From Flavobacteriales bacterium (GTDB lineage Bacteria > Bacteroidota > Bacteroidia > UBA10329): a stretch of 64,000 nt of DNA. The stretch covers positions 1 to 64,000 of the forward strand of contig JAIOYP010000011.1 of NCBI GenBank assembly GCA_021741155.1, written 5' to 3'. Below, in pieces: positions 46,163-57,938 of the stretch; position 1 is the first letter of the stretch, and every line of letters begins with the position of its first letter. The position numbers and the translations under genes are program-made. Below the pieces are notes generated by a model, which ran no database searches, had not been told where the DNA came from, and saw only the letters and a list, made by a program, of their open reading frames with translations.

Positions 46163-46283
46163 CTTTGGTATGGTTTAAATGTGAACTTTCGAGTTTCAAA
46201 GATACGTGAAAACTGACCTTTACCCTTGCCTCGATCAATTCTCTCACGATCTTAGCGACCTGATTAACGAATTATCATTTGGA

Positions 46284-47972
46284 ATGAATAGACAATTTGA
46301 CGTTGTAATTCTTGGAGGCGGACTTGCGGGTCTCACGCTTTCCATGCAGTTGAAACAGCAAAACCCAACCATCAAGATTTTGGTCTTGGAAAAGCGCGAT
46401 GATGCTGCTCCCGATGCCGCTCATAAAGTGGGCGAAAGCACGGTTGAATTGGCTACGCATTACTTGCGAGAAGTACTCGGTTTGAAAGATTATTTGGATG
46501 AATACCAACTTCCGAAGCACGGACTGCGTTTCTTCTTTTCGCCTAAGCACAAAACCACCATCCACAAACGGGTAGAATTAGGACCAAAAGTGCTGCTACC
46601 TGTGCCAAGTCATCAGTTGGATAGAGGAATATTGGAGAATGATCTGGTTCGTTTTAGTCGTGAATTGAAAAATGATGTCGTGCTTGGTGCCAAGGTCGAT
46701 AGTGTGGATATCGCTGCGGATTCGCATTCGGTTATGTACACGGTAGATGGCAATCAAAGCACAGCTACTGCCCGTTGGGTAGTGGATGCTTCTGGTAGAG
46801 CGAGCATTCTAAAGCGAAAGTTTGGTTTTGCGCAAGCGCATCCACATGATGTCAATTCGGCTTGGTTCCGTGTAGATTGGAAGATTGACATCGATACTTG
46901 GTCTGATGATGCAAAATGGCATTCTCACGTTCAGCCTGGATTGCGCTATTTGAGCACAGTTCACCTCATGGATGCGGGTTATTGGGTTTGGATTATTCCG
47001 TTGGTGGGCGATAAAACCAGCGTTGGAATTGTGGCCGATCCTGCCATTCATCCGTTTGAGACTTACAACAAACTTGATAAAGCTTTGGCTTGGATTGAGC
47101 AGTGGGAACCGCAACTTGCAAAGGAATTGAAGGCAAAAACGGAGGATACAGGCAACATCCTCGATTTCAAACTCATGAAGCACTTCGCTCATAGTTCCGG
47201 TGAGTTGTTTCATACCGACCGTTGGGCAGTTACGGGTGAAGCCGGATTGTTTGCCGACCCGTTCTACTCTCCCGGTTCCGACTTCATTTCCATGGCCAAT
47301 ACTTGGACAGCAGACCTCATTCAGCGCGATTTGAAAGGCGAAGACATCTTCTTCCGCACCAAGTTCTATTCGGAAGTGTTGAAGGCGCTATTCGACAACT
47401 GGATGCCGATTTACACAGGCCAATACCCGATGTGGGGAAGCACACAGGTGATGGTAGCGAAGATTTTCTGGGATTGGGGCGCATATTGGAGCATCAACAC
47501 GCTGCTGTTCATCAATAACGGACTGACAGACCTCGAACTGCTGCGTAAATTGACCGCAGGGCCGAAATCCTTGCTTCAGAAATACGGTGAGTTGAGCAAG
47601 CAGATGCAGAAGCTCTTCAAGGATGCGATGCCCTACGACACAGCCGACATCACAGACCGTTATACCGACCCATTCGACCTTGATTTCCTTCGTAAATTCC
47701 AAGAAGATATTGTAGAAAAGGAATACTCAACCGAAGAAATGCTGGACAAACTGTTCTCAAACCTTGGAGTTTTGGAACACGTGGCTGCCGAAATGTTCCG
47801 ACTCTTCAGCAACTTGGCGCATGGCACCGAAATGGACATCGATGTGGATCCTTACACCATGTCGCTCGAAGGCGAAAAACTCGAAAGTGTGAACAGCAAA
47901 ACGGTGAAACGCGATGCGCATATTGCAAATGAAATGAAGGCGATGTGGCTTTATGAAGCTGTGGGCGTTTAG
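46284..47972 (+). CDS. flavin-dependent halogenase-like monooxygenase, copy 1
   Basis: 562 residues from the ATG at 46284 (MNRQFDVVILGGGLAGL), chosen because the family begins just before the GxGxxG flavin motif; an ORF open 26 codons further is rejected. FAD motif GGGLAG (11-16), K48 in HKVGES, DASGRAS, and the halogenase motif WxWxIP as W234-V-W-I-I-P239. Much like halogenase-like proteins of flexirubin loci, which may chlorinate the aryl head. About 170 nt before the closely related second copy. No ATGAT-N4-ATCAT site is seen ahead of it. Confidence 0.8.
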   Translation: MNRQFDVVILGGGLAGLTLSMQLKQQNPTIKILVLEKRDDAAPDAAHKVGESTVELATHYLREVLGLKDYLDEYQLPKHGLRFFFSPKHKTTIHKRVELGPKVLLPVPSHQLDRGILENDLVRFSRELKNDVVLGAKVDSVDIAADSHSVMYTVDGNQSTATARWVVDASGRASILKRKFGFAQAHPHDVNSAWFRVDWKIDIDTWSDDAKWHSHVQPGLRYLSTVHLMDAGYWVWIIPLVGDKTSVGIVADPAIHPFETYNKLDKALAWIEQWEPQLAKELKAKTEDTGNILDFKLMKHFAHSSGELFHTDRWAVTGEAGLFADPFYSPGSDFISMANTWTADLIQRDLKGEDIFFRTKFYSEVLKALFDNWMPIYTGQYPMWGSTQVMVAKIFWDWGAYWSINTLLFINNGLTDLELLRKLTAGPKSLLQKYGELSKQMQKLFKDAMPYDTADITDRYTDPFDLDFLRKFQEDIVEKEYSTEEMLDKLFSNLGVLEHVAAEMFRLFSNLAHGTEMDIDVDPYTMSLEGEKLESVNSKTVKRDAHIANEMKAMWLYEAVGV

Positions 47973-48074: not shown

Positions 48075-48110
48075 ATGATATACATCATATACTAGGAAGA
48101 TACACATCAT
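48075..48110 (+). promoter_or_regulatory. operator ATGAT-N4-ATCAT, plus degenerate second site
   Basis: Perfect palindrome TATGAT-ATAC-ATCATA at 48074-48089 (core 48075-48088). A weaker copy AAGAT-ACAC-ATCAT at 48097-48110 is centred 22 bp away, two helix turns. The first core ends 21 nt before the TAnnTTTG box at 48110. The layout (5+4+5) is that of CRP/FNR-type sites; the factor is not known. Confidence 0.7.
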
Positions 48111-48117
48111 ATTTTTG
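48110..48117 (+). promoter_or_regulatory. promoter -7 box of halogenase copy 2
   Basis: TATTTTTG, exact TAnnTTTG, 27 nt before the ATG at 48145. There is no separate -33 box; the operator occupies it, as expected for an activator at about -42. Confidence 0.65.
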
Positions 48118-48144
48118 GCGACTTCAATCCCAAAAATGTAAAAC

Positions 48145-49839
48145 ATGAACGAACAATTTGATGTAATTATCCTCGGTGGTGGACTTTCTGGTCTGCTGCT
48201 TTCACTTCAACTCAAACAACAGAAACCAGATATAAAACTTCTGTTGCTCGAAAAACGAGAAGGTAAAGCTCCTGCGGCCGCTTTCAAAATTGGGGAGTCT
48301 TCTGTTGAACTTGGAACGCACTACATGCGAGAGGTGCTCAACCTAAAAGATTATCTCGACAAGAAACAACTTTCCAAGCACGGACAACGTTTTTTCATGT
48401 CGCCAAAACACAAGACCGAACTGCACAAACGTGTCGAACTCGGCCCACGTGCTTTCTTGCCAGTTCCAAGTCATCAATTGGACCGTGGTATCTTTGAAAA
48501 TGATCTTATTGACATGACCCGCGAATTGGGAAATGAATTCCTTTTGGGGGCAAAGGTGGAGAATGTGGAGATTAAAACAGATGGCAGCAACCATGAGGTG
48601 AAATACACCAAAGACGGAAAGTCGCACACGGTCAATTCCCGATGGGTAGTGGATGCCACAGGCCGTTCAAGCTTCCTGAAAAAGAAAATGGGTTTTGCAG
48701 AGGAATATCCGCACAACGTAAGCTCATCCTGGTTCAGAATTGACCGTAAGGTTGATGTAGAAACTTGGTCTGATGATCCGAAATGGCGAGGACGTGTGGC
48801 CGATGGCCTCCGTCACTTGAGCACCGTTCACCTTATGGATAGTGGTTATTGGGTCTGGATTATTCCGTTGATCGGTGGCCGTACCAGCATCGGAATTGTG
48901 GCAGATGAGGCCATTCATCCATTCTCAACCTATAATACACTCGAAAAAACACTTGATTGGTTCAAAGTGAACGAGCCGCAACTGGCAAAGGAATTGAGCG
49001 GACATGAAGGAGAGATTATGGATTTTCTGGTGATGAAGCATTTTGCTTACGCATCAAAAGAAACCTACTCAACCGATCGTTGGACCGTTGTGGGCGAATC
49101 GGGGCTTTTCGGTGATCCATTCTACTCGCCCGGCATCGATTTCATTACGCTGGCAAACACGTTCTCTGGAGACCTTATCCTTCGTGATCTTGGAGGAGAA
49201 GACGTGCTTTTCCGTACCAAATTCTATGCACAGGTAATCCGTGCATTGTACGATAATTGGATGCCGCTTTACAAGAACCAATACGTTCTTTGGGGAAGCT
49301 CGCAGATTATGGCTGCCAAGATATTCTGGGATTGGGGCGCATATTGGAGCATCACCACACTTCTGTATGTCAACAAGGGCATTACGGACGTTGACCTGAT
49401 GAAGGCTGTTGTGAGTGGCCCCACAAGTTTCCTACAACGCTATGGCGAGCTCAGCGCGCAGATGCAGCGTTTGTTCAAAGACATGCTTCCTTACGACACG
49501 GCAGACCATACGGATCGTTATTTAGATCCATTTCAATTGGATTACCTCCGTGGTTTCCAAGAGGATATTGTGGAAAAACAGTACAGCAAGGAAGAACTGG
49601 CTACCAAACTGTTCGCTAATCTGGAAACGATTGAAAAAGTGGCTACCGAAATGTTCCGATTGTTCAGCAATCTGGCCCATGGCACCGATATGGATATTAT
49701 GGTCGACCCTTACACCATGTCGCTGACAGGCGAGAAACGTGAAAGTAAGAACAGCAAACTGCTTGGACGCGATGCATACCTTGCTGGAGAACTGAGCAAG
49801 ATGTGGATGTATCCGTATCCTTCGGAAGTGACGGTTTAG
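48145..49839 (+). CDS. flavin-dependent halogenase-like monooxygenase, copy 2
   Basis: 564 residues, a clear paralogue of the gene before it: both share FDV-IILGGGL-GL, KHG-RFF-SPKHKT, PVPSHQLDRGI and the WxWxIP motif (in GYWVWIIPL). FAD motif GGGLSG and K/GES position are kept. Preceded by its own operator and promoter, so it is regulated apart from copy 1. A strong terminator follows. Confidence 0.8.
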   Translation: MNEQFDVIILGGGLSGLLLSLQLKQQKPDIKLLLLEKREGKAPAAAFKIGESSVELGTHYMREVLNLKDYLDKKQLSKHGQRFFMSPKHKTELHKRVELGPRAFLPVPSHQLDRGIFENDLIDMTRELGNEFLLGAKVENVEIKTDGSNHEVKYTKDGKSHTVNSRWVVDATGRSSFLKKKMGFAEEYPHNVSSSWFRIDRKVDVETWSDDPKWRGRVADGLRHLSTVHLMDSGYWVWIIPLIGGRTSIGIVADEAIHPFSTYNTLEKTLDWFKVNEPQLAKELSGHEGEIMDFLVMKHFAYASKETYSTDRWTVVGESGLFGDPFYSPGIDFITLANTFSGDLILRDLGGEDVLFRTKFYAQVIRALYDNWMPLYKNQYVLWGSSQIMAAKIFWDWGAYWSITTLLYVNKGITDVDLMKAVVSGPTSFLQRYGELSAQMQRLFKDMLPYDTADHTDRYLDPFQLDYLRGFQEDIVEKQYSKEELATKLFANLETIEKVATEMFRLFSNLAHGTDMDIMVDPYTMSLTGEKRESKNSKLLGRDAYLAGELSKMWMYPYPSEVTV

Positions 49840-49852
49840 TCCGATTTGAATT

Positions 49853-49891
49853 AAAAAAGAGGCTGTCTGACATATTCAGACAGCCTTTTTT
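49853..49891. terminator. rho-independent terminator
   Basis: Perfect 10-bp stem GGCTGTCTGA / TCAGACAGCC with A- and T-tracts on either side (49853-49891), after halogenase copy 2 and before the convergent cyclase. Confidence 0.92.
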
Positions 49892-49986
49892 ATGTTCGGA
49901 TATTTGAAGAAATTATTCTGAGACAACCTCCATAGAGTTTATACTTCATTCTGGAATCAGCTGCGTGGAATCAAGACGGGTCTTAC

Positions 49987-51924
49987 TCACGCGATCTTCT
50001 CAACGAAATACATGTCAATATTCCCTTTGTTCTTGGCGTGTATCTGTCCCCGATGATCACACTGAAAATTGTCTTTGACCAAAGCATAGGTACTGCTGCT
50101 GATGTTCACTTTTCCTGCCTCACTGTTCTGCTCCATGCGTGCGGCAGTATTCACCGTATCGCCCCAAATGTCGTATTGGAATTTTTTGATACCGACAATA
50201 CCCGCCACCACTGGGCCAGAATTGATACCGATGCGTATCTCCAATTTGTGCTCGGTTCCGTCTGCAAGTCTGATGGCCGACCGTCCAATCATAAAATCTC
50301 GCATGTCAAGAGCCGCATTAACTACATCATTTGGATTGGTAGTATTGGAAACGGGTAATCCGCCAACGGCCATGTAAGCATCTCCGATGGTCTTTATTTT
50401 CTCTATGCCATACTTGCCCATAATAGCATCAAATGCCTTGAAACAATCATTGATCTCGTTCACCAAATCCTTTGCGCTCAATTTCTGAGACAGCGTTGTA
50501 AAGCCTTTGAAATCGGTGAATATGACCGTTACCTCATCAAACTGTTTAGCATCGGCATAACCCTTGTCTTTCAGCTCCTCTGCCACCTCGGCCGGAAGAA
50601 TATTGAGCAGAAGGTCATCACTTCGCTTCTTTTCCTTGGTTATGCGGTTGCGCTGAGTGAAGAATACAATGGCAAAAAGCAGTACAAAGGCAAATCCTCC
50701 AATAAATCCATTACGTAGCAATTTCTGCCTCGTAATCTCTTTTAGCTGAATCTCACTGTCCTTGTTGAGCAAAGCTATCTCATGATCCTTCTTCTCCGTT
50801 TCATAGATGGTTTTCATCTGAGCAATCTGCTCATTATTGTCTTCGTTGAGTATGCTGTCCTTGTATGATGTATGTAGCTTGTAATGTTCCAAAGCCGCTT
50901 GATAATCGCCTATCGTGCTGTCCAGAAAAGATAAAGCATGATAACTATCACTGACATTATCCTTAGCTCCCAATTGTTTGGAGACAGACAGCCCATCCTC
51001 TAGGTATTTTCTTGCTTCCAAGTAATTTTTGAGCTTGGCATGCTGTAGGCCGATGTTCACATAACACAACGCGATTTCAAATTTGTTTCCGAGCTCCTCA
51101 TTTATTCGCAGGGCAGTCAAATAATTGTCTAGTGCATCTTTGTTCTTATGCTGGCCCTCATAGATCATTCCTATCGAGGAATATGCGTTGGCAATACCTT
51201 TCTTATCCCCCAGTTCTTCTTTTATTTTCAGGGATGCGAAGTAGCTCTTCAATGCCTCCTGATGATTATTCTGAGCTGCGTATATATGACCGATATTGTT
51301 GTAGAGGTAGGCTATTCCCATTTTGTTGCCCAACTCTTCCCATAGCTTCAATGAGGCATCATAATTTTTCAAGGCATCATCAAAATTATCCTGCCGATGG
51401 TAAATAATTCCAATGTTGTTGTAAGCAGTGGCAATCCCTTTTTTGTCATTACTTTCCATCCGTAGCCTCAGAGAAGCAAGGTAATTTTCAATAGCCAGCG
51501 GATAATTGCCCTGGTGATCATAGACCAGTCCGATATTGTTGTAGGAAGTTGCCATTCCTTCCTTATTTCCGTTGTCCTTTCTTATTTTCAGTGCAGCAAA
51601 ATGATTTCGCAATGCCTCGGTATAATTGCTCTGATGGTAACTGATAAAGCCGATGTTGTTGTACGCATCTGACATGAACTCAGACAAATCTGCCTCAGTG
51701 GCAAGTGCTAATGCATCAGTGGCATATTGTTTTGCTTTTCCGTAATCGCCAGCTTGGCAAAGCTTTTCGCTAAGCGCATTGAGAGCATTTACCTTATCAG
51801 CATCCTCTACCGCAACGTTCAATACGGTCAGTAAAGAATCCACAGTTCTGTCCTGAGAAAAGGCTCCCACTGAATAATGGACAAAAAGCACCAACAAAAA
51901 TATTCTTACAGTTCTATCTATCAT
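49987..51924 (-). CDS. TPR-repeat adenylate cyclase (class III)
   Basis: 645 residues from the ATG at 51924 with signal peptide (IFLLVLFVHYSVGAFSQ). Extracytoplasmic part: about eight tetratricopeptide repeats (repeating SDAYNNIGFISYHQSNYTEAL-like 40-residue units, about 40-350). A coiled coil and one membrane helix follow, then a cytoplasmic class III cyclase domain. In the catalytic domain, FTDFKGFT and GDAYMAVGG carry the metal Asp pair. KIKTIGD and QYDIWGD have the Lys and Asp of adenylate specificity. Makes cAMP in response to a periplasmic or surface signal. Confidence 0.9.
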   Translation of the reverse strand: MIDRTVRIFLLVLFVHYSVGAFSQDRTVDSLLTVLNVAVEDADKVNALNALSEKLCQAGDYGKAKQYATDALALATEADLSEFMSDAYNNIGFISYHQSNYTEALRNHFAALKIRKDNGNKEGMATSYNNIGLVYDHQGNYPLAIENYLASLRLRMESNDKKGIATAYNNIGIIYHRQDNFDDALKNYDASLKLWEELGNKMGIAYLYNNIGHIYAAQNNHQEALKSYFASLKIKEELGDKKGIANAYSSIGMIYEGQHKNKDALDNYLTALRINEELGNKFEIALCYVNIGLQHAKLKNYLEARKYLEDGLSVSKQLGAKDNVSDSYHALSFLDSTIGDYQAALEHYKLHTSYKDSILNEDNNEQIAQMKTIYETEKKDHEIALLNKDSEIQLKEITRQKLLRNGFIGGFAFVLLFAIVFFTQRNRITKEKKRSDDLLLNILPAEVAEELKDKGYADAKQFDEVTVIFTDFKGFTTLSQKLSAKDLVNEINDCFKAFDAIMGKYGIEKIKTIGDAYMAVGGLPVSNTTNPNDVVNAALDMRDFMIGRSAIRLADGTEHKLEIRIGINSGPVVAGIVGIKKFQYDIWGDTVNTAARMEQNSEAGKVNISSSTYALVKDNFQCDHRGQIHAKNKGNIDMYFVEKIA

Positions 51925-52133
51925 TTGGTACAATTTACGCTGATTATAAATACATCTACCATCACAGTGCAAAATCTGTTCTTTTCACTATAGTTTATCC
52001 ATATTCTCTAAAAAACGTAGTTCCGTTGTGGGCAATGATACGGTATGATGATGAACACGGATAGACTGGGAACGATAAATCCCGATTATTGTGGTGATTT
52101 GATGGATTAAACTTCGTTTTACATTTTCGTTTT

Positions 52134-52871
52134 ATGGGTATTTCAGAAAACATAGAGACCGTAGTCTCCACCTTCCAGAAAGGAAGAGAATTGGCGGAAA
52201 GCGGACTTTCTTTGGATGAACTCATCTCAAAACTGAACGATTTTGAACCGAGGTACCGTTCGGTGGCGTTTGAAGGTGCTTCGATGGGAGTTGCGCTGAC
52301 AGACTGGAAAAGTTGGGCGGAATACGCCAAGCGTGCTGAAAAGCACGGAACGCAAGTTCATATAGGTTTGGGTTGGGCGATTGCCCAGCCCCCTAAATCC
52401 CCCGAAGGGGGAACTTCTAGCCCCCTAAATCCCCCAAAGGGGGACTTGGCTTCGCCTCCACAGCTTGACCTCGCTTCTACTCTATCTCAAATTGAACAAG
52501 AACTGCGTGTCAAAGTGTTGGATGGTGTTGGTTATTGGCATGGACTATTTCAAAGGAGAGCTACTATCCGAACCCAGCAAATTCCTGAATTCATAACAGC
52601 CGAATATCAAGCGGGGTTTGACCACGGAGTTGGCCGTGCCATTTGGTACATCACCAAAGGGGAAGTGGACAAAGTGGCGAACATCATCAGTCATTTCTCC
52701 GAAGATCGAAGACCAAACCTTTGGCAAGGCATTGGTGTGGCTTTAACGTTTGTGGGCGGTTGTCCGGATGAATTGATTGCTGAGTTAAAATCGGCAGCTG
52801 GTAAGTTCAGATTGAACTTGGAGAAGGGAATTGAAGCGGCTGAAGGAAGTATGCGGAGGGCTCAGATATAG
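52134..52871 (+). CDS. DUF1702-like protein with in-frame repeat insertion
   Basis: 245 residues. Pattern of DUF1702 proteins: FEGASMGVALTDW, GLGWAIAQ, DGVGYWHGLF, GFDHGVGRAIWY, and LWQGIGVALTFVGG. Residues about 85-110 (PPKSPEGGTSSPLNPPKGDL) are not family-like. They are encoded by two tandem copies of a DNA repeat (52387-52447) that keep the frame. DUF1702 proteins accompany enediyne and other polyketide loci. Whether the insertion is tolerated is unknown. It precedes the first NO reductase by 90 nt, with that gene's own promoter in between. Confidence 0.65.
   Translation: MGISENIETVVSTFQKGRELAESGLSLDELISKLNDFEPRYRSVAFEGASMGVALTDWKSWAEYAKRAEKHGTQVHIGLGWAIAQPPKSPEGGTSSPLNPPKGDLASPPQLDLASTLSQIEQELRVKVLDGVGYWHGLFQRRATIRTQQIPEFITAEYQAGFDHGVGRAIWYITKGEVDKVANIISHFSEDRRPNLWQGIGVALTFVGGCPDELIAELKSAAGKFRLNLEKGIEAAEGSMRRAQI
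52387..52447. repeat. two tandem copies of AGCCCCCTAAATCCCCC-AAGGGGGACTT element
   Basis: Copy 1 at 52387-52416 (with CGAAG loop), copy 2 at 52419-52447 (CAAAG loop); each is an inverted C-run/G-run hairpin. It adds codons inside the DUF1702-like gene without a stop. The element looks like a short mobile repeat of the REP type. Confidence 0.8.
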
Positions 52872-52889
52872 TTTCTCCTTTCCTACAAT

Positions 52890-52932
52890 ATGACACACAT
52901 CATACCGCAATACCGATAGAGCAATAATTTTG
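52890..52932 (+). promoter_or_regulatory. operator and promoter of first NO reductase
   Basis: ATGAC-ACAC-ATCAT at 52890-52903 (one mismatch from the palindrome; flanked T and A) and TAATTTTG at 52925-52932, 21 nt apart, exactly as at 48075/48110. The ATG at 52961 lies 28 nt after the box, which also decides that start against the upstream one at 52934. Confidence 0.7.
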
Positions 52933-52960
52933 CGTGCCTACCCCCTATTCTGCACGCAAA

Positions 52961-55300
52961 ATGAGCACCCAACTACAGGAGAAAGACGAATCAAAACGAA
53001 GCCTCAACTACTTCATGGAATCCAAAAACTGGTGGGGACCGCTGCTTTTCATATTGATTGTGAGTGTGGCTGGTGTAGGCATGATTGGTTTTCAGACCTA
53101 CAACGATGCTCCGCCCATGGGTGGTTTTGCGGATGAGGCTGGAACGGTTGTCATTTCTCAACAAACGATAGAACAAGGTCAGGAAGTGTTCCATCGCTAT
53201 GCGCTGATGGAATACGGCAGCATGTTCGGAGATGGAGCGCAGCGCGGGCCCGATTTCACTGCCGAGGCTTTGCATCGCATCAGTCTTTCCATGGTGGAAT
53301 TCCATGTGAATGAATACACTTCTGCACACGGAACGCCACCCTCCGATCTGGAGCGCAGAATGATACAGGAAAGTGTGAAGGACGAACTGAAACTGAACCG
53401 CCATGATGTTTCTACAGACCTAGTGACCTTATCTGCTGCACAGCTTTTCGCCTTGGCACAACTGAAAGAATATTACATCGACCTGTACACCTCACCACGA
53501 ACAGGCAAGTCATTTCCTCCTGCCAATTACATTACCGACAAGGAAAAACTGGCAGATTTAGCATCTTTCTTCTATTGGGGAGCTTGGGTGTGCGTGGCAC
53601 AACGGCCAGGAAGCAATTTCAGCTATACCCACAACTGGCCTTACGACCCCGATGCGGGCAACACGCCCACCTCACCCACCATCATTTGGAGTGTTATCGG
53701 TATGCTGGCATTTGTGCTGGCCTGTGGCGTGGTACTCTACTTTATCGGGCAGTATAACCAACTGTCTAACAAGTTTTTCAAAGCTCCAAGTAAAGACCTA
53801 CTTACCATGAAACGGGTGAATGGAATGCAACCATCAGCCACACAACGGGCGGCTTTCAAGTTCTTCTTTGTGGCCATCATCCTATTCTTCCTTCAGGTTT
53901 TCAGCGGTATTCTCACCATTAATAGTTTCACTGATTATTTTGGCTTCATCGGCATCGATTTCTCAGCCCTCTTGCCCGTAACCGTTACGCGCAGTTGGCA
54001 CCTCATGCTTTCGCTTTACTGGATAAGTGCATGTTGGATAGCATCATCCATCTTCATCCTTCCAATCCTTGCCAAAACAGAAGTAAAAGGTCAGTTGAAG
54101 CTGATAAACCTGCTTTTTGCAATGGTCTTTGTGCTGGTGGCAGGTTCGGTGGCGGGTATGTTCCTCGGCCCACTGGGTTATTTGGATGAATGGTGGTTCT
54201 GGCTGGGCCATCAGGGTTGGGAGTTTGTAGATCTGGGCAAATTGTATCAGGCGTTGCTCATGCTCATCTTTATTCTGTGGGCCATTATTGTTTTTCGTGG
54301 AGTGAGACCTGCCCTTATCAAAGGTGAACCTTGGAACATTCCCAACTGGTTGCTCTACTCCGTCATTGGTATTCCCGTGTTCTTCATTTCGGGGTTCGTT
54401 ACCCGTCCCGAAACCAACTTTGTGATAGCCGATTTTTGGCGATGGATGGTCATCCACATGTGGGTGGAAGCCTTCTTTGAAGTGTTCGTAACCGTTATTG
54501 TAAGTTACCTGATGGTGCTGATGGGATTGGTGAGTCGACAGGCCGCCATTCGCGTAATCTACTTTGCCACACTTCTTTTTCTGGGCACAGGGTTACTCGG
54601 TATTTCGCACAATTTCTATTGGAATGCCAAGCCCGTAGCCACCATGGCATTAGGCAGCGTATTCAGCACGCTTCAATTCGTGCCACTCATCCTGCTTACC
54701 GTAGAAGCTTGGCGATTTAAGAACATGCCGCGCATGGCCGTGAACGGATTGGAGAAGAAAGATCTAGGAGATTTCGCTTTTCCTGAAGTATTTCTCTTTT
54801 TGGTTGCTGTGAACTTCTGGAATTTCTTCGGAGCGGGCGTGCTGGGCATCATCATCAACTTGCCCATTATGAACTATTTTGAACACGGAAGCTACCTCAC
54901 GGTAAACCACGCCCACGCAGCTTTGATGGGTGTTTACGGAAACATCTCCCTAGCTGCGCTGCTCTTCGCCTGCCGCATCTTACTCAAACCCACAGCTTGG
55001 AACGGACGCTTGGTAAAATTCTCCTTCTGGAGCATCAACATCGGACTTATGCTGATGGTGCTGCTCGACCTTTTCCCTGCTGGCATCATTCAGTTTCAGG
55101 CTATTGTAGAACGAGGATTATGGTTCGGGCGATCAGAAGCTTTTATACAAGGCGGCACGTTTGAAGCCCTCACTTGGCTGCGCGGAATTGGCGCCACAGT
55201 GTTCTTCTTTTTGGGTGTCACACCTATGGCATGGTTCGTTGTATCGCGTTTGGCATCGCTCAAACCGAAGAATGAGAGCCCTGAAAATCACCTCACTTAA
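52961..55300 (+). CDS. norZ: quinol-dependent nitric oxide reductase (qNOR), copy 1
   Basis: 779 residues from the ATG at 52961; an upstream ATG at 52934 lies on top of the promoter and is rejected. The N-terminal periplasmic extension contains the qNOR pattern GMIGFQTYNDAPPMGGF, GQEVFHRYALMEYGSMFGDGA, and RGPDFTAEALH. About 13 membrane segments follow, with heme-binding RSWHLM, HMWVEAFFEVFVTVIV, HNFYWNAK and NHAHAALMGVYG. It reduces NO to N2O with quinol electrons in the inner membrane. No separate norC is needed. Confidence 0.92.
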   Translation: MSTQLQEKDESKRSLNYFMESKNWWGPLLFILIVSVAGVGMIGFQTYNDAPPMGGFADEAGTVVISQQTIEQGQEVFHRYALMEYGSMFGDGAQRGPDFTAEALHRISLSMVEFHVNEYTSAHGTPPSDLERRMIQESVKDELKLNRHDVSTDLVTLSAAQLFALAQLKEYYIDLYTSPRTGKSFPPANYITDKEKLADLASFFYWGAWVCVAQRPGSNFSYTHNWPYDPDAGNTPTSPTIIWSVIGMLAFVLACGVVLYFIGQYNQLSNKFFKAPSKDLLTMKRVNGMQPSATQRAAFKFFFVAIILFFLQVFSGILTINSFTDYFGFIGIDFSALLPVTVTRSWHLMLSLYWISACWIASSIFILPILAKTEVKGQLKLINLLFAMVFVLVAGSVAGMFLGPLGYLDEWWFWLGHQGWEFVDLGKLYQALLMLIFILWAIIVFRGVRPALIKGEPWNIPNWLLYSVIGIPVFFISGFVTRPETNFVIADFWRWMVIHMWVEAFFEVFVTVIVSYLMVLMGLVSRQAAIRVIYFATLLFLGTGLLGISHNFYWNAKPVATMALGSVFSTLQFVPLILLTVEAWRFKNMPRMAVNGLEKKDLGDFAFPEVFLFLVAVNFWNFFGAGVLGIIINLPIMNYFEHGSYLTVNHAHAALMGVYGNISLAALLFACRILLKPTAWNGRLVKFSFWSINIGLMLMVLLDLFPAGIIQFQAIVERGLWFGRSEAFIQGGTFEALTWLRGIGATVFFFLGVTPMAWFVVSRLASLKPKNESPENHLT

Positions 55301-55429
55301 TCCATCTAAGTGATGGGCTGCGTGTTGGAAGAAAATTGGTAGTGTTCGGGTAGTGGGATGACAGACCTAACTGATGGCACAATAGCAGTTACAATTTCCA
55401 AATACGGATTTTGGAATGATACTTTTTTC

Positions 55430-55443
55430 ATGATGCATATCAT
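55430..55443 (+). promoter_or_regulatory. operator ATGAT-GCAT-ATCAT ahead of second NO reductase
   Basis: Perfect palindrome core at 55430-55443, third copy of the site. Unlike the other two it has no TAnnTTTG box at 21 nt; the nearest similar word is CAAATTTG at 55457-55464 (13 nt). The ATG is 150 nt downstream, leaving a long leader with nothing recognised. Confidence 0.55.
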
Positions 55444-55592: not shown

Positions 55593-57938
55593 ATGAAAAA
55601 GAACATTATTGCAAAATATATACTCAGTAAGAAGTACTGGTTTGTTCATTTTATAGCGGTTTCGCTCATGTCAATCTTTGGATTGCTATTCATGACGCAA
55701 GACGTTTACGACACCGCTCCACCTATTCCTAATTATACCACGCAAGAAGGGGAGGTTCTTATCTCTAAGGAGAAGATCATGCGTGGGCAAAAAATATTTC
55801 ATGCCAGAGGACTTATGAATTATGGCTCCTTTTGGGGAGATGGAGCTGAAAGAGGGCCAGACTACACCGCTGAGGCTTTACATCTTATGGGTCTTGGCAT
55901 GCAAGAATTCTATGTAAATCAAGACCAATTAGGAACTGTAACTAAGGGCAATTCGATACATACTTGGGAGTTTGATATCCCTGATGATAGCAAGTTGGCA
56001 GTTGAAGCAAGGGTTAAAAAAGAGATTAAAATAAACAACTACACTGAACAAGGAGACAAGGTTGTTATTTCTAAGGCTCAAGAACACGCATTCAAATACA
56101 TCGAATACTATTATACACAGATATACTCTAACGAGACCTGGCCTGATGCCATGAAACCAGTTGGTTTTATTTCAGATGAACAGGAGATGAAAGACCTGTC
56201 GGCCTTCTTTATTTGGGGTGCATGGGTAGCAGTAACCAATAGAGTGGATGAAAACCATAGTTATACTCAAAACTGGCCTTATGATGAGTCGGTTGGAAAT
56301 GTGGCAACCTCTAATGTCTTGGTCATTAGTTTTTTGTCGATTGGGCTACTGTTTTTAGGTGTTATGATTATACTTTATCTGTATGGAGCCATCAAAGAAT
56401 TGCCTGGTGATCCTTTAAAGATAAAAAGTGCGGATAGAATTCTAACTACTAATGACCTAGAGGGGGATATTGTAAGGCCGACCCAAAAGAGTACCTACAA
56501 GTTTTTTGTATTCAGCATTCTACTGTTTGTTGCGCAAGTTACCGTTGGAATTTTGATGAGTATGGACTTCAGCTCACCATTTGCAGGCAAGATTTATAAT
56601 ATCTCACCTTTTAATTTGCTTAGATCATTCCATACGTTCCTACAGATTTATTGGTTTTTCTTAATGTGGATTGGTTATACCATCTTCTTCTTACCAAGAT
56701 TTCACACACCTCCTAAATATCAACAACTATTAATCAATGTATTATTTGGCACAACACTATTTATTGGTGTGTTTGGAGGAATTGGAATTATACTTGGGCA
56801 ACTAGGAATTTTAAAAGGAGATATGGCCATTTGGTTTGGCTCTCAAGGTTGGGAGTTTATGGAGCCAGGGCGATTCTTCTTCTTTGTTCTATTGTTCGCT
56901 TTTACACTATGGATTTTCATTATCTATAGAGGTGTAAAACCATGGGTAACACTTAAAACATTCTGGTCTTTGCCCGCTTGGATTTTATGGGGGTCAGGCA
57001 TAATGGTCTTCTTCCTATACTTTGGTATGTTCGCCACCACCGATACCAATTGGGCAGTTGCAGATTATTGGAGATGGATGGTTGTGCACATGTGGGTTGA
57101 AGTAACTTTCGAAGTATTCACTACCGTTATCGTAGGATACATTTTGGTACAACTAGGTTTTGTTTCTAGAGCCATGGCTGAAAAGGTTATTTATCTGGGA
57201 GTTATTCTATTCCTCATTACAGCAACAATAGGTGTTGCCCATAATTTCTATTGGATAGCTAAATCCACAACGATTATTGCTTTGGGTAGCGCATTCAGTA
57301 CACTTCAAGTGCTGCCTCTACTCCTACTGACCTTTGATGCTTACAAAATGAGAAGAGATGGAGGTCTGGCACTTATTCAACACCAGAAGGGGCATCAAAA
57401 ACATCTTATGGATGGTGTTTGGTTATTCGTCTTGGCAGTCAATTTCTGGAACATTTTTGGAGCGGGGGTTTTTGGTTCAATGCTCAACCTACCAATAATA
57501 AACTACTATGAACATGCAACGAGCTTTACCCACGCTCATGCACATTTGGCCATGTTTGGAGTTAAGGGCAATGTTTCATTGGCAGGAATGCTATTTGTAA
57601 TGCATCATTTAGTAGATGCCAAATACTGGAGCGCTAAACTGGTGAAATGGTCTTTTTATGCATTAAATGGAGGAATTACATTGATGGTACTTATAGATCT
57701 GTTGCCACTAGGTGTAGTCCAAGTAGTTGAAGTTATGGATAGTGGTTTATGGTATGCAAGAAGTAACGAGTTTATTACAAGCACCACATTCCAGATATTT
57801 AGCAATTTACGCTCTATTGGAGGGACATTATTCTTTGCTGGGGTTCTTATGATATCCTGGTTTGTTATCAGCAGAAGTGTTAGACTGAAAAGCGATAATG
57901 ATAATGTGGATGAAAACGATTTCGTAGAGGGGAATTGA
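55593..57938 (+). CDS. norZ: quinol-dependent nitric oxide reductase (qNOR), copy 2
   Basis: 781 residues, starting MKKNIIAKYILSKKYW. Same domain plan as copy 1: MTQDVYDTAPPIPNY, GQKIFHARGLMNYGSFWGDGA, ERGPDYTAEALH, HTFLQIYWF, HMWVEVTFEVFTTVIVG, HNFYWIAK and HAHAHLAMFGVKGN. It is clearly diverged from copy 1 and its codons are noticeably richer in A/T, so it is unlikely to be a recent tandem duplicate and may have been acquired separately. Confidence 0.92.
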   Translation: MKKNIIAKYILSKKYWFVHFIAVSLMSIFGLLFMTQDVYDTAPPIPNYTTQEGEVLISKEKIMRGQKIFHARGLMNYGSFWGDGAERGPDYTAEALHLMGLGMQEFYVNQDQLGTVTKGNSIHTWEFDIPDDSKLAVEARVKKEIKINNYTEQGDKVVISKAQEHAFKYIEYYYTQIYSNETWPDAMKPVGFISDEQEMKDLSAFFIWGAWVAVTNRVDENHSYTQNWPYDESVGNVATSNVLVISFLSIGLLFLGVMIILYLYGAIKELPGDPLKIKSADRILTTNDLEGDIVRPTQKSTYKFFVFSILLFVAQVTVGILMSMDFSSPFAGKIYNISPFNLLRSFHTFLQIYWFFLMWIGYTIFFLPRFHTPPKYQQLLINVLFGTTLFIGVFGGIGIILGQLGILKGDMAIWFGSQGWEFMEPGRFFFFVLLFAFTLWIFIIYRGVKPWVTLKTFWSLPAWILWGSGIMVFFLYFGMFATTDTNWAVADYWRWMVVHMWVEVTFEVFTTVIVGYILVQLGFVSRAMAEKVIYLGVILFLITATIGVAHNFYWIAKSTTIIALGSAFSTLQVLPLLLLTFDAYKMRRDGGLALIQHQKGHQKHLMDGVWLFVLAVNFWNIFGAGVFGSMLNLPIINYYEHATSFTHAHAHLAMFGVKGNVSLAGMLFVMHHLVDAKYWSAKLVKWSFYALNGGITLMVLIDLLPLGVVQVVEVMDSGLWYARSNEFITSTTFQIFSNLRSIGGTLFFAGVLMISWFVISRSVRLKSDNDNVDENDFVEGN

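Follow-up and report, generated by a model that had tools for sequence, protein, structure and literature searches.

Among the regulatory systems described so far, one of the closest to the element reported here is the DNR/NNR regulon of denitrifying Proteobacteria, whose box, CTTGATnnnnATCAAG in the available text of PMC1274295, is an even 14-bp dyad of 5+4+5 form. Our element is the palindrome ATGAT-N4-ATCAT, which stands ahead of two nitric oxide (NO) reductase genes (norB1 and norB2) and a halogenase-like gene in a 64,000-nucleotide stretch of DNA, hereafter the window, from a Flavobacteriales bacterium (assembly GCA_021741155.1, contig JAIOYP010000011.1, positions 1 to 64,000). It shares the dyad with DNR/NNR, and also common to both are nor and nos genes, a regulator of the CRP/FNR family that lacks the cysteine motif of FNR and an activator-like position; unlike DNR/NNR, the outer base here is A and not T, the promoter is of the Bacteroidota -7 type, and nar, molybdenum, RIC and nrdJ genes are in the set. 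The likeness to DNR lies in gene set, linkage and cysteine pattern; it may or may not extend to orthology and heme/NO sensing. We consider it likely that an activator of the CRP/FNR family binds the palindromes and switches on the genes of nitrate/NO respiration together with related ones.

Other members of the family differ in instructive ways. The FNR box (TTGAT-N4-ATCAA) has the same geometry, and a Glu at the CRP E181 position is common to FNR and the candidate regulator described below, but the four-cysteine set of FNR is absent here. At base 3 of the half-site, CRP boxes carry G and FNR/DNR boxes carry T, where ours has A. HcpR2 of Bacteroides and others is, like the candidate here, a CRP/FNR-family protein that occurs in Bacteroidota, with a nitrosative response that the candidate would share, but its box is GTAACnnnnGTTAC and its target mostly only hcp, with P. 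gingivalis said to differ, in the available passages of PMC1274295. CrpPg of P. gingivalis (PDB 2GAU), the best sequence match among solved chains (A2 profile, E 1.9e-31), has Val and Ser in the alignment at the positions of the candidate's helix Tyr and Glu; the text available from PMC12040651 describes it as a cAMP-independent global regulator whose DNA binding is ligand-independent. The NsrR, HcpR2 and FNR boxes were each ruled out as the identity of the palindrome on geometry or sequence: it is not the FNR/DNR form TTGAT-N4-ATCAA and, as an even 14-bp dyad with an N4 gap, not the NsrR form gATGyAT-N5-ATrCATc.

Bacteroidota carry much clade II nosZ. The open-licence papers that we found on the topic do not state how these bacteria switch denitrification on, and in the open-licence literature on Bacteroidota or flavobacterial denitrification regulators we found no report of this box, nor did we find an ATGAT form of it elsewhere in such literature, though the TGATNNNNATCA form does occur there. 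A wastewater meta-regulon study placed CRP/FNR proteins of Flavobacteriales and Saprospiraceae near MalR and, in its available text, searched them only with the MalR motif (PMC8510549). With the box, its spacing and its regulator defined, the promoters for handling NO and N2O could be read directly from genome and metatranscriptome sequences of these bacteria, which are uncultured.

The palindrome and its promoter spacing

The original prediction, made from the window alone, placed palindromes at 48075, 52890 and 55430, and a reading of the window together with a pattern scan located all three with the fit given in Table 1. It also gave the distance to a TAnnTTTG box as 21 nt at the first two, which proved exact, with both boxes matching at 6/6 positions. 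Class II activators of the CRP/FNR family bind with the site centre near -41.5. The -7 box of Flavobacterium psychrophilum lies at -12 to -5 in the available text of PMC9723704, so by that promoter a gap of 21 or 22 nt would put the site centre at -40.5 or -41.5 from the start site. This is in keeping with the position near -42 that had been proposed. The same spacing is seen again in further families of Bacteroidota.

We searched the draft genome (3,757,329 bases in 69 contigs, 94.7% complete; G, C and L numbers below denote genomes, contigs and loci). The exact palindrome occurs at 22 places, against 2 for the reversed control, and is thus not at chance level. When up to two mismatches were allowed, the motif was followed by TAnnTTTG at 11 places versus 2 in the control for a gap of 21 nt and at 15 versus 4 for 22 nt, some places being shared by both lists. 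The 22 exact places comprise 14 intergenic sites and 8 in open reading frames (ORFs); a -7 box (TAnnTTTG, at least 5/6) lay at 21/22 nt from 8/14 of the former and 0/8 of the latter (one-sided p 0.009). The half-site ATCAT at 18-24 nt from TAnnTTTG, tried as a signal by itself, was hardly enriched (19 versus 13 in the control), indicating that it is the full palindrome that carries the signal. In the window, sites with at most one mismatch numbered 12 where 4.46 were expected, a count reached in 0/100 shuffles; by the ORF list eight of them are inside ORFs, and the other four are those at 48075, 48097, 52890 and 55430. Allowing two mismatches left a small excess (72 versus 53.7, with 72 reached in 3/100 shuffles). 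The palindromes are therefore real and belong to a genome-wide set. The box does stand ahead of the two norB genes and the halogenase-like gene originally named, but the set of genes is much wider than those three (Table 1). Together, these data support a finding larger than first stated, namely a genome-wide box of class II-like type that a CRP/FNR regulator of denitrifying Bacteroidota would bind.

A candidate regulator and a proposed mechanism

Five proteins of this genome exceed the Crp-HTH (helix-turn-helix) cut-off, and among them is a candidate for the CRP/FNR-like binder that had been anticipated. It is a 228-residue protein (G000:C57:12140-12823) encoded after moaA and beside narI, both over their NCBIfam cut-offs. 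Its domains place it in the CRP/FNR superfamily (PF00027, E 1.8e-16; PF13545, E 2.4e-10; both over cut-off), and it is the only one of the five clear CRP/FNR proteins to match its orthologue-group profile at E 1e-30. With cysteines only at 17, 123, 223 and 228, none of them clustered at the N-terminus, it is not an FNR proper; C17 and C123 are invariant among five orthologues. Nine NCBIfam models matched it at 1e-6 and none reached its cut-off (for Fnr, 59.5 bits against a cut-off of 228). His83, within GHRG, is conserved in every aligned regulator row except L171, in an alignment that has no rows for 11/40 loci. The helix TYE[ST]xxR occurs in the query and in 39/40 orthologue loci, counting the 11 without an ORF-picker row, in all of which a separate look found it; it was not found in L176, whose frame holds a stop codon. 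The closest regulators in named records come from Flavobacteriales metagenome-assembled genomes. The CAMCFW01 contigs L143 and L145 are titled Chryseobacterium gleum, yet their regulator is 75% identical to that of this genome, and the label may be wrong.

Aligned with the CRP/FNR-family chain 3h3u, the candidate's Tyr lies opposite Arg and its Glu opposite Glu of the residues RET, which we take to be CRP positions 180 and 181. CRP residue 180 is linked to half-site base 3, and residue 181 to base 6, in the available text of PMC1274295. By this published rule the outer base A, which stands for the T of the FNR/DNR box, would face the Tyr at the CRP Arg180 position, and the Tyr/base-3 A pair may set the specificity of the box. 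We regard the C57-type protein as the most likely, putative, binder. Its dimer would sit on (T)ATGAT-N4-ATCAT(A), with the site centre some 41 bp upstream of the transcription start, and would assist RNA polymerase at the Bacteroidota promoter, with TAnnTTTG 21-22 nt downstream, in the manner of class II FNR/DNR sites; its effect would be activation rather than repression. Without the four-cysteine set of FNR, it would be DNR/NNR-like in function. NO or some other nitrogen oxide is the probable signal, and low oxygen a possible one: the nearby RIC, norB and nosZ genes fit NO, while the nrdJ, radical-SAM and nar genes fit low oxygen or nitrate as well.

The run of genes that holds the regulator is itself preceded by the box. 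This is exact in L215, L218 and L219, with GTTATTTG at 22 nt; it has one mismatch in L153, with TAATTTTA at 22 nt, and two in this genome (L060:2341), with GTTATTTA at 22 nt. The presence of these boxes suggests autoregulation, in which the candidate would control its own run.

The box might instead be read by a different CRP/FNR protein, notably an oxygen sensor of the Fe-S FNR type. The response would then be to low oxygen, with the C57-type protein binding at other sites or just sharing this one. In four relatives the cluster does encode a second CRP/FNR-like protein, one whose cysteines are clustered at the N-terminus (L219:3191-3934, L214:16510-17238, L217:16834-17535 and L153:2348-3139; domains tested for L219 only), the nrdJ and radical-SAM genes adjoining sites fit anaerobiosis, and a cysteine-type FNR gene could be missing from a genome that is 94.7% complete. 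However, at least three clustered N-terminal cysteines were found in 0/5 clear CRP/FNR proteins here (two have a pair in the listed ORF), and yet the box is frequent; moreover, the helices of the cysteine proteins vary (SPEQLTR, NAAQLSR, RPEQFIK, TTETSIR) while the box stays constant. We consider such a reader unlikely.

Box and regulator in the genus and in other Bacteroidota

Within the nine genomes of the genus, orthologues of the C57 regulator with 57-75% identity occur in G004, G005 and G007 (two copies), and G002 has one that is split over two frames; the other four genomes hold only remote relatives. Palindromes numbered 22, 14, 13, 16 and 11 in the five genomes with the regulator and 4, 6, 3 and 9 in the four without it, and counts per Mb separated the two groups completely (one-sided p 0.008; 3/9 genomes are less than 85% complete). 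The regulator lies beside nosZ in G002 and G005 (TIGR04246 over cut-off in both), which also have an exact site ahead of RIC (TIGR03652 over cut-off), and a one-mismatch site precedes the fasciclin-nosZ run in these two and in G007, whose contig ends before nosZ. A further site precedes nrdJ (TIGR02504), exact in G007 and with one mismatch, by eye, in G002, where one of two sites has a 5/6 box at 22 nt. The genus loci L136-L138 were chosen partly for clustered palindromes. B12-dependent (class II) ribonucleotide reductase genes adjoin boxes at L140:312-2888 and L136:1-1742 (family tested for L140).

The nos region of G002 also contains an Rrf2-family gene (TIGR00738; L136:9497), as might be expected if the palindrome were the box of an Rrf2-type, NsrR-like NO repressor. 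The NsrR motif is an odd-length dyad in the available text of PMC1274295, whereas the box here is even, 14 bp long and of FNR geometry, and it precedes the -7 box, where an activator site would be expected, rather than covering it, making this explanation very improbable.

Beyond the genus, a scan of genome contigs for the regulator yielded 14 loci. In L147, L149 and L152 a run of lysyl-oxidase-like/Fer4_5 type, close to the regulator, is preceded by an exact site with a -7 box at 21 nt, and the same site, without a good -7 box, is present in L150. In L153 and L154 the narK-like, porin-like and MobA-like genes, as well as the regulator-holding run, have sites ahead of them, mostly at 22 nt (gene labels of L145-L154 are by eye, except for the L147 Fer4_5 and L153 MFS proteins). 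Across the class, 140/396 genomes matched the regulator profile at 1e-30, a threshold that takes in paralogues. Sites, many of them at 22 nt, precede DUF2249-ScdA_N-hemerythrin, cytochrome c, narG-like and norB genes in G147, G040, G011 and G013, and the regulator lies in nar-like clusters of other families (by eye).

The preferred spacing was reproduced in these families. At 15 relatives' loci, of which L214 and L215 were chosen partly for clustered palindromes, a box of at least 5/6 lay at 21/22 nt in 31/105 intergenic site directions (6 at 21 and 25 at 22; at most one mismatch), compared with an average of 1.1 at other spacings, 1/32 for in-ORF palindromes and 1/26 for five other palindromes. 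Over the fetched loci, 14 of 100 exact palindrome directions had the box at 21/22 nt against 0.625 per spacing, a count that includes the near copy L154 and leans on the many loci obtained through a palindrome or promoter pattern or as the surroundings of palindromes. Among 43 loci collected around the regulator (leaving out L154, a near copy of L153, and the distant match L156; L216 adjoins a palindrome cluster), ATGAT-N4-ATCAT was the commonest palindrome of the form 5+gap(0-10)+5, with 28 copies at 18 loci in 41.7 kb of intergenic DNA, and the next two commonest were the same box in shifted register. In these 43 loci, promoter-linked site directions with the core TGAT-N4-ATCA had outer bases A..T in 15/20 cases and the FNR form, T..A, in 0/20. 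In G147 and G174, which are of one genus and not independent, 8/14 and 11/18 palindromes gather within about 42 and 70 kb that include the regulator, and palindrome location therefore says more than number. Chance palindromes arising from base composition, with coincidental spacing, are the least probable explanation of all, extremely unlikely even though the bare numbers of palindromes range widely and do not follow the regulator over the class as a whole, since the preferred spacing, the intergenic bias and the recurrence at the same kinds of gene largely contradict it.

A norB match at 1e-60 was found in 13/396 class genomes. Within the genus norB is present in 1/9 genomes, so that no footprint could be drawn there and homologues were taken from other families. 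In G013, G092, G152 and G011, each of which matches the regulator below 1e-50, norB is preceded by a site of no more than one mismatch with a 5/6 box at 22 nt (the promoters of G011 and G152 are identical and not independent). No box was found at norB in G390, G104, G070, G028 and G014, which have no regulator match, or in G319, whose match is only 1.7e-37 and whose contig has fewer than 400 bases upstream. Overall, the box was present at norB in 5/7 genomes with a regulator match below 1e-50, this one included, versus 0/6 others (two-sided p 0.02).

Several results weigh against an activator of this kind acting at a fixed distance from the promoter. The spacing rule, which holds at 48075 and 52890, fails at 55430, where no -7 box of at least 5/6 lies at 21/22 nt; the range of 10-29 nt holds a single such match, CAAATTTG, 13 nt away. 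Altogether 6/14 intergenic sites of this genome lack a 5/6 box at 21/22 nt, among them 55430 and those at narG and the cytochrome c/CCP run; these two and the C22:63691 site have just 4/6. In G002, G005 and G007, the sites of RIC, of the nosZ run and, for G007, of nrdJ have at best a 4/6 box at 19-24 nt, which is at odds with a strict rule. No qualifying upstream site was found in L145, L146, L148 and L151. Class-wide, palindromes per Mb did not differ between 25 genomes with a strong orthologue and 16 non-matching genomes from outside the genus (two-sided p 0.43; the 0.5-Mb G032 was left out). The GC-rich family f9 has the regulator and few palindromes, and in its members G016 and G226 (regulator match below 1e-50) there is no box at norB. 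Finally, the four further CRP/FNR proteins of this genome are also possible binders.

On a broader scale, we see an even chance that the C57 regulator represents a Bacteroidota-wide subfamily of NO/denitrification regulators that has a box to itself, (T)ATGAT-N4-ATCAT(A), pairs Tyr at CRP 180 with A at base 3 as a new specificity, and governs nar, nor, nos, RIC and class II ribonucleotide reductase genes. Such a subfamily would recruit acquired genes as well; if so, the two norB genes and the halogenase gene would be new acquisitions drawn into the regulon by the box.

Features of the window and of the wider genome

Table 1. Boxes, promoters and genes in the window, followed by genes downstream of intergenic sites elsewhere in the genome.
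Feature	Position	Strand	Remarks
Regulator box ATGAT-ATAC-ATCAT	48075..48088	.	Exact palindrome, ahead of halogenase-like gene
Second box AAGAT-ACAC-ATCAT	48097..48110	.	AAGATACACATCAT; missed by the original prediction; one mismatch; 22 bp after first box, overlaps -7 box
-7 box TATTTTTG	48110..48117	+	TAnnTTTG 6/6; 21 nt from 48075 site
FAD-dependent halogenase-like gene	48145..49839	+	Pfam FAD_binding_3 and Trp_halogenase over cut-off
Regulator box ATGAC-ACAC-ATCAT	52890..52903	.	One mismatch, ahead of norB1
-7 box TAATTTTG	52925..52932	+	TAnnTTTG 6/6; 21 nt from 52890 site
norB1, quinol-type NO reductase	52961..55300	+	Pfam NorB_cytochrome_c-like and COX1
Regulator box ATGAT-GCAT-ATCAT	55430..55443	.	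Exact palindrome, ahead of norB2
norB2, quinol-type NO reductase	55593..57938	+	Pfam; 42% identity to norB1
narK-like transporter	C57:3189		TIGR00886 258.8 bits, below cut-off 311.7
Cytochrome c gene then narG	C57:20991		narG TIGR01580 over cut-off
Cytochrome c/CCP_MauG run	C1:20605		
ModE-like HTH gene	C30:6716		Run with MobA-like gene
Xanthine-dehydrogenase-like gene	C56:32224		
HGD-D and MobA-like genes	C56:55547/55612		
Lysyl-oxidase-like gene then Fer4_5/TPR gene	C22:63691		
PaaA (phenylacetate degradation) gene	G000:C7:16152 (L003)		Box with TAAACTTG at 22 nt
TauD-like gene	C21:8017		
Small protein	C5:9668		No Pfam match

One further intergenic place, C22:74670, has no plausible promoter, and PaaA is an unexpected member for a low-oxygen regulon. 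For norB1, the ATG at 52961 is the likelier start, judged from the sequence, because the listed GTG at 52934 directly follows the -7 box.

The translation of the boxed halogenase-like gene contains a WxWxIP stretch, and its top NCBIfam match is CmlS at 71.7 bits (cut-off 900). It is the second of two halogenase-like FAD genes in tandem (46206-47972 and 48145-49839), and upstream of the first copy there is just a two-mismatch site without a -7 box; with the box at the second gene only, the two copies may be regulated separately. A 22-bp tandem pair of sites like that at 48075/48097 also occurs in L217 (9575/9597), ahead of a cytochrome c gene and a narG-like gene. Stretches like CCCCTAAATCCCCC are repeated at 52385-52450, within a 245-residue ORF (52134-52871).

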